From: Acetobacteraceae bacterium
GTDB taxonomy: Bacteria > Pseudomonadota > Alphaproteobacteria > Acetobacterales > Acetobacteraceae
Length of the DNA: 64,000 bases
Direction: 5' to 3'
NCBI GenBank assembly: GCA_003151425.1
Contig: PLXO01000023.1
Location: 1-64,000 of the forward strand
Shown: piece after piece, positions 6,682 through 60,390 of the stretch
Layout: each line of letters starts with the position of its first letter
Numbering within the stretch: position 1 is the first letter of the stretch
Notes under the pieces: generated by a model
Seen by the model: the letters and a program-made list of their open reading frames with translations, nothing else
Database searches by the model: none
What the model was told of the DNA's origin: nothing
Translations under genes and position numbers: made by a program

Positions 6682-7536
6682 ATGCCCACCACACAGACCC
6701 ACGTGCTGACCGACCTCCGCTCCCGGATCGCGCGCATCGCCCGCGACCCGGTCCGCCGGCACGCGCCTGCCATCCGCTTCGGCATCCAGGCCCTCGACCG
6801 GCACCTGCCGGATGGCGGCCTCGCCATCGGCGCGTTGCATGAGGCCGCCGGGACTGGCCCGGATACCGAGCACGCCGCGGCCGCCGCGCTGTTCGCCGCC
6901 GGCGTGCTCGCCCGCCTGCGTGGCCCGGTGCTGTGGGTGCTGACGCGTGACGACCTGTTCGCCCCAGCGCTGGCCGGCGTCGGACTGCACCCGGACCGGC
7001 TGATTCTGGCCGAGGCGGGCAAGCAGGTCCTGTCGGTGATGGAGGAGGGGCTGCGCCATCGCGGCCTGGCCGGGGTGGTCGGCGAGCTCGACGGCAGGCT
7101 GACGCTGACCGCCTCGCGCCGGCTGCAGCTTGCCGCCGAGACGTCCGGCGTCACTGCCATCGTGCTGCGCCGGGCGCGCCGGCACGACGACCCCGCGCTG
7201 GCCGAGCCGAATGCCGCGGTGACGCGCTGGCGGCTCACCGCGCTGCCTTCGGCGCCACCGCTGGCGCAGGCGCCGCACTTGGCTGGCATGGGGGCTGGCA
7301 TGCGCGCCGGCGCCCAGGTGCTGCGTGCACCGGACATGCCGGGGCTGGGGCGGGCACGCTGGCGGTTGGAGCTGCTGCGTTGTCGTGGCGGCGAACCCGC
7401 AACCTGGATCGTGGAGGCGTGCGATGCGACGGGTCATCTCGCTCTGGTTGCCGAACTTCCCGACCGATCGGCTGCGCCGCTGCCGCCCCCCCTCACAAGG
7501 GACCGACGCGCTGTCGGCTGGCGCACCGCCGGCTGA
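6682..7536 (+). CDS. imuA: ImuA (RecA-like mutasome accessory protein)
   Basis: RFGIQALDRHLPDGGLAIGALHEAAG...; followed by ImuB in overlapping frame; LexA box upstream. Confidence 0.85.
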   Translation: MPTTQTHVLTDLRSRIARIARDPVRRHAPAIRFGIQALDRHLPDGGLAIGALHEAAGTGPDTEHAAAAALFAAGVLARLRGPVLWVLTRDDLFAPALAGVGLHPDRLILAEAGKQVLSVMEEGLRHRGLAGVVGELDGRLTLTASRRLQLAAETSGVTAIVLRRARRHDDPALAEPNAAVTRWRLTALPSAPPLAQAPHLAGMGAGMRAGAQVLRAPDMPGLGRARWRLELLRCRGGEPATWIVEACDATGHLALVAELPDRSAAPLPPPLTRDRRAVGWRTAG

Positions 7537-9070
7537 TAGTCCACCGGCTGGCACGCCATTTGTGACCTCGGCGCATGACGGGCACCGCCGGGTGATTGCC
7601 GCGGTCGATGCGGCGGCGCGCGCCCTGGGCCTGTGCCCCGGCCTGCCGTTGGCGCAAGCGCAGGCGCGCATCCCCGGCCTGGCGGTGACGGAGGCCGAGC
7701 CGGAGGCGGATGGGGCGACGCTCGGGCGGCTCGCGGCCTGGTGCCTGCGCTACGCGCCGCTGACCGCGCCCGATCCGCCGGACGGGGTGTGGATCGATGC
7801 CACCGGCGCCGCGCACCTGGCTGGCGGGGAGGCGGCGCTGCTGGCCGATTTGGTCGTGCGGTTGCAGCGGGTTGGATTTGCCGCGCGGGCAGCGATCGCT
7901 GATACGCCGGGTGCCGCGCATGCGGTGGTTCGGTATGGCGAGAAGATTAAGAAAGTTAAGAAGGTTCTCCCCCTCTCCTTGAGGGAGGGGGAGAATAACG
8001 CATCGCCATGCCCTCATCCTGCCTACATCGCCTACACAGCCATCGTGCCGCCGGGCGGCGCCGCAACCGCTCTGGCACCACTGCCGATCCGCGCGCTGCG
8101 GCTGAGCGACGAGGCCGTGGCGGCGCTGCACCGCCTCGGCCTGACACGCATCGGCCAGCTCATGGCTGCTCCCCGCGCGCCGTTGGCCCGCCGCTTCGGC
8201 GCCTCCCTGCTGCGCCGGCTGGACCAGGCGCTGGGCCAGGTGTTCGAGCCGATCGTCCCCCTCGACCCGCCGGAGGTGATCAGCCGCCGCCTGCCCTTCG
8301 TCGAACCGCTGTTCACCGCCGAGGCGTTCTCCGCCGTCATCGCCCGGCTGGCCCGCTCGGTCTGCCGCCGGTTGGAGCGGGCAGGCCTGGGTGCGCGCCG
8401 GCTGGACCTGCTGTTCGAGCGGGTGGACGGCAGCGTGCAGGCGATCCGTGTCGGCACCGCGCGGCCGGCGCGCGACCCCGCGCATCTCGCCCGGCTGCTC
8501 GACGAACGGCTGGAGACGGTGGATCCCGGCCCGGGGGTCGAGGCGATGCGGCTGACGCTGCCGCTGGTCGAGAAATTCGCCCAGACCCAGACGGCGACGC
8601 TGCTGGATGACGAGGCGGCCCCCGATCTCTCGGTGCTGCTGGACCGGCTGGCCAACCGGCTCGGCGCCGAGCTTGTCTATCGCGTCGCACCGGTGGAATC
8701 CGACGTGCCGGAACGCTCGGTGCGGCGCGTCCCCCCGCTTGCGCCACCCACGCGCCGGACCTGGCCGGCGGACCTGCCTCGCCCGGCGCGACTGCTGTCG
8801 CCACCGCAGCCGGTGCGGGCGCTGGCGCCGCTGCCCGACCACCCGCCGGTCGCCTTCACCTGGCGGCGCAAGCGCTTCCGCGTGCACCGCGCCGACGGGC
8901 CGGAACGCATCCACGGCGAGTGGTGGCGGCGCGATGCGGAGATGCTCGCCGTGCGCGACTATTTCCAGGTCGAGGACGAGGACGGGCGCCGGTTCTGGCT
9001 GTTCCGCCGCGGCGATGGGGTCGATGCGGAGACCGGCGATCTGAGCTGGTTCCTGCACGGGATTTTCTAG
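7424..9070 (+). CDS. imuB: ImuB, Y-family polymerase-like mutasome protein
   Basis: MRRVISLWLPNFPTDRLRR ... PLPIRALRLSDEAVAALHRLGLTRIGQLMAAPRAPLARRFG ... WWRRDAEMLAVRDYFQVEDEDGRRFWLFRRG...SWFLHGIF; carries an in-frame REP-like insertion. Confidence 0.9.
   Translation: MRRVISLWLPNFPTDRLRRCRPPSQGTDALSAGAPPADSPPAGTPFVTSAHDGHRRVIAAVDAAARALGLCPGLPLAQAQARIPGLAVTEAEPEADGATLGRLAAWCLRYAPLTAPDPPDGVWIDATGAAHLAGGEAALLADLVVRLQRVGFAARAAIADTPGAAHAVVRYGEKIKKVKKVLPLSLREGENNASPCPHPAYIAYTAIVPPGGAATALAPLPIRALRLSDEAVAALHRLGLTRIGQLMAAPRAPLARRFGASLLRRLDQALGQVFEPIVPLDPPEVISRRLPFVEPLFTAEAFSAVIARLARSVCRRLERAGLGARRLDLLFERVDGSVQAIRVGTARPARDPAHLARLLDERLETVDPGPGVEAMRLTLPLVEKFAQTQTATLLDDEAAPDLSVLLDRLANRLGAELVYRVAPVESDVPERSVRRVPPLAPPTRRTWPADLPRPARLLSPPQPVRALAPLPDHPPVAFTWRRKRFRVHRADGPERIHGEWWRRDAEMLAVRDYFQVEDEDGRRFWLFRRGDGVDAETGDLSWFLHGIF
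7964..7995. repeat. REP-like palindrome inside imuB
   Basis: ttctccccctctccttgagggagggggagaat; same core recurs at 56768-56797 and twice at 60269-60390. Confidence 0.8.
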
Positions 9071-9097
9071 GCTGGTTCAGTGTGGCGGGGCCAGCGT

Positions 9098-9618
9098 CCA
9101 TCGCACGCACCTTCCAGCACGTGAAGCTGCTGGCGAACCGCAGCGTGCTGGAAAACATCGCACTCGGGGCGCATCTGGCGGGTCGCGCCGGTTTGTTGCG
9201 CGCGATGCTGCGGCTGGATCGAGCCGAGGAAGCGCGGCTGCTCGCTGACGCGCGCGCGCAGGCCGCGCGGGTGGGGCTCGGCCGGGTGCTGGACATGCCG
9301 GCGGGCGATCTGCCGCTGGGTCAGCAGCGCGTGGTGGAGATCGCCCGCGCGCTGTGTCTGCGCCCACGCCTGCTGCTGCTGGATGAGCCCGCGGCCGGGC
9401 TGCGGCTGGCGGAAAAGCAACTCCTCGCGATCCTGCTGCGGCAGTTGCGCATCGAAGGCATCGGGGTGCTGCTGGTCGAGCATGATATGGATTTCGTCAT
9501 GCAGTTGGCGGATCGCGTCGTGGTGATGGATTTCGGGCAGAAGATCGCCGAAGGTCCGCCGGCACAGGTGCAGTCCGATCCGGCGGTGCAGGAAGCTTAT
9601 CTGGGCGGACTGGCATGA
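9098..9618 (+). pseudogene. livG: Branched-chain amino-acid ABC transporter ATP-binding protein LivG, 5'-truncated
   Basis: Begins at IARTFQHVKLLANRSVLENIALGAHL; Walker A and N-terminal ~third absent; rest intact (LLLLDEPAAGL, LLVEHDMDFVM). Confidence 0.8.
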
Positions 9619-56767: not shown

Positions 56768-56797
56768 TACTCCCCCTCCTCTTGAGGGAGGGGGAGA
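56768..56797. repeat. REP-like palindrome (single copy)
   Basis: tactccccctcctcttgagggagggggagaatg immediately downstream of the DUF1989 stop. Confidence 0.75.
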
Positions 56798-60268: not shown

Positions 60269-60390
60269 CTACTCCCCCTCCCCTTGAGGGAGGGGGTGGG
60301 GGGGTGGGGTCGGCTCCAGTATCGCACCGAACTTGCCACCGCGAACCCCTCCCCCCATCCCCCTCCCTCAAGGGGAGGGGGAATAGCTAA
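60269..60390. repeat. Inverted pair of REP-like palindromes (REPIN/BIME-like)
   Basis: gctactccccctccccttgagggagggggtgggggggt ... ccccccatccccctccctcaaggggagggggaatagct separated by ~45 bp. Confidence 0.85.

Follow-up and report, generated by a model that had tools for sequence, protein, structure and literature searches.

How did a palindromic DNA repeat come to be translated within imuB, a gene of the SOS mutasome, and does its presence matter to the protein? The gene lies in a 64,000-nucleotide stretch of an Acetobacteraceae genome (contig PLXO01000023.1, positions 1 to 64,000), called the window here. An earlier note on this DNA had claimed that a REP-like core sits in frame in the middle of imuB and leaves the reading frame open, and both points were borne out.

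An in-frame palindrome in imuB

The likely start codon of imuB is the ATG at 7424, and a profile search identified the Pfam domains IMS, IMS_C and DUF6504 in its product. The core CTCCCCCTCTCCTTGAGGGAGGGGGAG is a perfect hairpin at 7967-7993, in frame with the imuB ORF (Table 1), and its RNA is predicted to form a stem of 14 bp (-26.4 kcal/mol). It is embedded in an extra segment of 33 residues (EKIKKVKKVLPLSLREGENNASPCPHPAYIAYT, 99 nt) where homologues have about 3, which agrees with the proposal of roughly 30 added residues in place of a short linker. The repeat proper, at ∼31 bp, is a small part of this segment. Because the ∼90 added nucleotides are a multiple of three and contain no stop, the frame is kept open throughout. 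Similarity to ImuB homologues is alike on either side of the insert, and conserved ImuB motifs continue beyond it to the C-terminus.

Table 1. Coordinates of imuB, its palindromic insert and related features. Positions are those of the window unless a locus is named.
Feature	Position	Strand	Basis or remark
imuA, overlaps imuB	6682-7536	+	ImuA profile E 7e-12, below curated cut-off
imuB	7424-9070	+	Y-family polymerase homologue, presumably inactive, DUF6504 C-terminus
ImuB extra segment, residues 175-207 (numbering from 7418)	7940-8038	+	alignment, family survey, AlphaFold
Solo palindrome in imuB, TT-CTCCCCCTCTCCTTGAGGGAGGGGGAG-AA	7965-7995	+	encodes LPLSLREGE
15-mer AGGATGAGGGCATGG in right flank of imuB copy	8006-8020	-	matches flank of another copy
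livG-like ATPase, 5'-truncated, without Walker A half, directly after imuB	9071-9618		lacks first 80 profile positions
Intergenic solo copy	56770-56796	+	pattern match, copy alignment
Intergenic inverted pair, REPIN-like (arms 60272 and 60357)	60272-60383	.	pattern match, copy alignment
Iron ABC transporter permease with in-frame solo copy	L163 987-3239	-	alignment
DUF255/thioredoxin-domain protein with whole inverted pair translated	L221 638-2782	-	alignment
In-frame CGTC-type REP dimer at ImuB loop (Sphingomonas)	L139 3345-3557; L142 3339-3551; L257 (G662)		

An artefact of assembly or binning is scarcely credible as a source of the segment. The genome is a draft of 368 contigs with 6% contamination, but the parts of ImuB on either side of the insert find the same relatives with comparable identity, the palindrome belongs to the genome itself, and the frame is maintained.

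ImuB homologues at the junction

ImuB was aligned with 105 further sequences, and the span from the palm motif (ADTPGAAHAV..RYG) to the thumb motif (AIVPPGG..) was measured. This stretch is 46 residues long here against a usual 17 among ∼104 homologues, in which its length varies. A junction search in 250 genomes of the family gave 197 matched genomes; among the matches listed, this genome alone is interrupted at the junction, and the other family matches listed cross it in one piece with at most ∼12 extra residues. Similarly, no insert this long was present at the junction in the best 60 of 734 plasmid records with ImuB. The earlier note had asked whether the added residues are confined to this strain; within the relatives searched and the matches listed they are, and the opposite outcome that it had named, an insert conserved as protein, was not found among the homologues searched. 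Two ImuB proteins (L056 and L131) carry long, non-palindromic loops at the same junction.

Structure and neighborhood of ImuB

An AlphaFold model of ImuB based on 32 homologues has a mean pLDDT of 82. Residues 177-202, between a helix (164-176) and a strand (206-209), fall below 50, and in this model the insert is a predicted disordered loop between the last palm helix and the thumb. The structural neighbors of the model are Y-family polymerases, with low global TM-scores that indicate fold class only; a sequence search found no solved ImuB structure. The protein resembles known ImuB, which is described as catalytically dead (PMC6511836), in its Y-family fold, its ImuB C-terminal domain and the adjacent imuA; it differs in the ∼30 extra residues of the palm-thumb loop and in lacking an adjacent dnaE2.

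In the relative L065, dnaE2 follows imuB. Here an intact DnaE2 (77% identity, 1071 aa) is encoded on another contig (C341). With imuA adjacent and dnaE2 intact elsewhere, ImuB is probably functional; the mutasome, judged from its genes, is probably complete. Split mutasome cassettes work in mycobacteria (PMC6511836).

The separation of imuAB from dnaE2 makes relaxed selection on imuB possible. The gene could even be dying, or have been under relaxed selection since the locus lost dnaE2, and the insertion would then mean little. The missing dnaE2 neighbor and the 5'-truncated livG after the imuB stop, a sign of local rearrangement, are consistent with such decay. However, the frame is open over its full length, both sides of the insert are similarly close to homologues and motifs are kept to the C-terminus; the intact dnaE2 elsewhere and the mycobacterial precedent also argue against it. 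We regard this explanation as quite unlikely.

A high-copy palindrome family

A search with the palindrome core gave 4 matches in the window; shuffled sequence gave 0. The earlier note had located the same core in intergenic DNA at 56768 and 60269-60390, and near-copies are indeed found at 56770, 60272 and 60357; the last two, however, are the arms of one inverted pair; in imuB the hairpin stands alone. Genome-wide, a loose pattern detected 151 palindromes, compared with 2 for a reversed-pattern control, and a strict pattern detected 122. The strict pattern found no palindrome in any of 119 other genomes of the family.

Retrieval and alignment of 88 genome stretches defined 100 loci. Of these, 43 are inverted pairs, their arms separated by ∼75-107 bp and GGGGGGAGGGG conserved on the inner side. 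At another 37 a single palindrome was detected, mostly with the pair-type inner flank GGGGGGAGGGG, and 20 are solos, with both ends of the CTCC type, among which is the imuB copy. We infer that a solo is the remnant of a pair after loss of everything between the outer arms. Aligned palindrome ends are mostly N-T-T or N-C-T beside CTCC, and lack both the GTAG and the CGTC tag. A second palindrome variant, with an internal CTTGGGCCGCGAAGCGGACCAAG hairpin, often forms one half of a pair (L148, L157, L165, L166, L167, L169 and others).

High copy number (∼150 sites) and mostly extragenic placement (∼97 of the 100 loci are not coding insertions) are as in REP elements. A RAYT (TnpA_REP) gene, the presence of which the earlier note had asked about, did not emerge: PF01797, the RAYT/Y1 transposase profile, had no match in the genome (96.6% complete), with control genomes positive, and the gene is likely absent. 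The label REP holds for the palindrome by structure, not by mobilizer. Insertion into hairpin loops, signaled by inverted flanks, was also considered and rejected as the general mechanism; inverted flanks of at least 7 bp occur at 5 of 63 loci, a real effect against the 0.3 expected but limited to a minority.

Copies inside genes

Intragenic copies were counted by coding-potential and ORF scans followed by alignments, with a home-made codon model that may have missed one or two cases. The first pass required clear same-frame coding on both sides and left imuB as the sole intragenic copy; this result was discarded when a second pass, which tolerated short flanks and an undetected second palindrome, added an iron ABC permease (L163) and a DUF255 protein (L221). 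Most other checked ORFs spanning a copy were rejected, either because the copy lies upstream of the first domain or because the ORF appears to be in the wrong frame. The proposed genome-wide search for the core in other ORFs thus put in-frame copies at ∼3 of 100 loci, imuB included.

In the permease, a segment between two N-terminal hydrophobic stretches is missing from the Roseomonas protein. In the DUF255/thioredoxin protein, the inverted pair is translated in the C-terminal part. The peptides differ with the reading frame (LPLSLREGE in imuB, SPPP-type in L163 and L221), and all three copies occupy loop-like or poorly conserved protein regions.

Bacterial genomes are mostly coding. Under random insertion alone, the majority of copies would lie within genes, and the shortfall points to the removal of most gene insertions. 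The ∼3 coding loci per 100 speak for tolerance and against recruitment. The earlier note had drawn a parallel with the Rickettsia palindromic elements (RPE, reviewed in PMC10969869), which likewise are palindromes that a gene takes up in its reading frame and translates. This parallel did not survive as a description of the family: RPE copies are to a large extent coding and share a conserved peptide, whereas here the three coding copies differ in frame and the great majority are not coding insertions.

Flanks and origin of the imuB insert

The right flank of the imuB palindrome links it to another copy. Read towards the core, AGGATGAGGGCATGG differs by one mismatch from AGGATAAGGGCATGG at L160, and both lie 12 from the core; matches as good at equal offset are uncommon among 162 flanks. 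The left flank AAGATTAAGAAAGTTAAGAAGG is Lys-rich, with 30% GC, and has no second occurrence genome-wide at up to 2 mismatches. Since only ∼31 of the ∼90 extra nucleotides are repeat and the left flank is unmatched, the event behind the segment may be more complex than a plain insertion.

A longer loop could also have come first, through local low-complexity expansion, with the palindrome arising or entering later. The small tandem repeats in the flanks, the uniqueness of the left flank and the long loops of L056 and L131 are all compatible with this order of events. It would leave unexplained, though, why the 31-bp hairpin matches a high-copy family almost perfectly and why the right-flank 15-mer is shared at equal distance with another copy, and we consider it unlikely.

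The explanation that we favor, with a probability of about 80%, is that a non-autonomous palindrome of the genome's own inserted in a permissive imuB loop, giving ImuB ∼30 disordered residues, and is most likely a neutral passenger. A REPIN/MITE-like repeat would have entered imuB at the loop leading from the final palm helix into the thumb, presumably moved by a transposase acting in trans, perhaps since lost. The ∼90 nt would have been added with the frame preserved and the ∼30 disordered residues placed at the protein surface. ImuB with the insert would still work, and the effect would be close to neutral.

A different repeat at the same loop in Sphingomonas

By the same measure, two Sphingomonas ImuB proteins (L139 and L142) have 49 residues at the junction. 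At the DNA level the insert consists of two CGTCACCCCCGCGAAAGCGGGG-type repeats in inverted orientation, members of a family present dozens of times in each genome. Between the two loci, both arms differ in matched fashion (AAAGC against AACGC). In 250 Sphingomonas genomes, three among the matches listed break at the ImuB junction (G630, G631 and G662). In G662 the insert is the same but one of its arms has decayed, and the closest relatives among the matches listed (G847, G693 and G793) cross the junction unbroken. Presence in three related species suggests that these inserts share descent. Because the element is different and the lineages are distant, the Sphingomonas and Acetobacteraceae inserts are independent events in one loop.

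Unrelated repeats at one ImuB loop in two orders mark the site as permissive, and it could serve for tagging ImuB. The insert could instead be adaptive, changing ImuB contacts (with the clamp, ImuA or DnaE2) and hence the rate of SOS mutagenesis, and an adaptive effect of REP-tagged repair genes has been the subject of speculation (PMC3733652). The striking of the same loop by different repeats in two orders would fit, as would the frequency with which REPs have been reported inside repair genes, among them dnaE2, uvrA and recB (PMC3733652). Against this, the insert is predicted to be disordered in a loop of variable length among homologues, the other two intragenic copies lie in unrelated genes, and decay of the insert is seen in one of the three Sphingomonas species. 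We judge adaptation very unlikely, and find it most improbable that the palm-thumb loop is a recurrent landing site through which unrelated REP-type elements tune the mutasome and selfish repeats thereby reset the mutation rate of the host again and again. The shared loop provides a natural experiment on whether chance or selection brings such repeats into repair genes.

Relation to known repeats

Intragenic REPs, including those in error-prone polymerase genes, have been on record since 2013: REPs lie within genes in several species, many of them in DNA synthesis and repair genes such as dnaE2, and in recB of two Xanthomonas, REPs that differ from one another occupy nearly the same position (PMC3733652). 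The main text of that paper does not mention ImuB, and a literature search found no paper treating imuB together with REP. What is new is that ImuB joins the repair proteins with in-frame palindromic repeats, and that in three Sphingomonas an unrelated REP dimer of the CGTC type is read in frame at this same junction. The imuB palindrome resembles the intragenic GTAG/CGTC REPs (PMC3733652) in being short, in frame and single or dimeric, in adding 20-30 aa, and in its target class, repair and error-prone polymerase genes; its family, unlike theirs, has no GTAG or CGTC tag.

In arrangement the family resembles the REPINs of Pseudomonas fluorescens SBW25 (PMC3116915), which also form inverted pairs around a spacer of lower conservation and lie mostly outside genes, and whose singlets have been read as remnants. 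Here, unlike in SBW25, no RAYT gene was found, and the solos are symmetric hairpins, as though the outer arms had been joined.

CGTC repeats have been reported as missing from Acetobacteraceae (PMC3733652). At L191, L207, L210 and L222, copies of the palindrome are found next to or inside a repeat of the CGTC type, CGTCATGGCCGGG, as though one had landed in the other.
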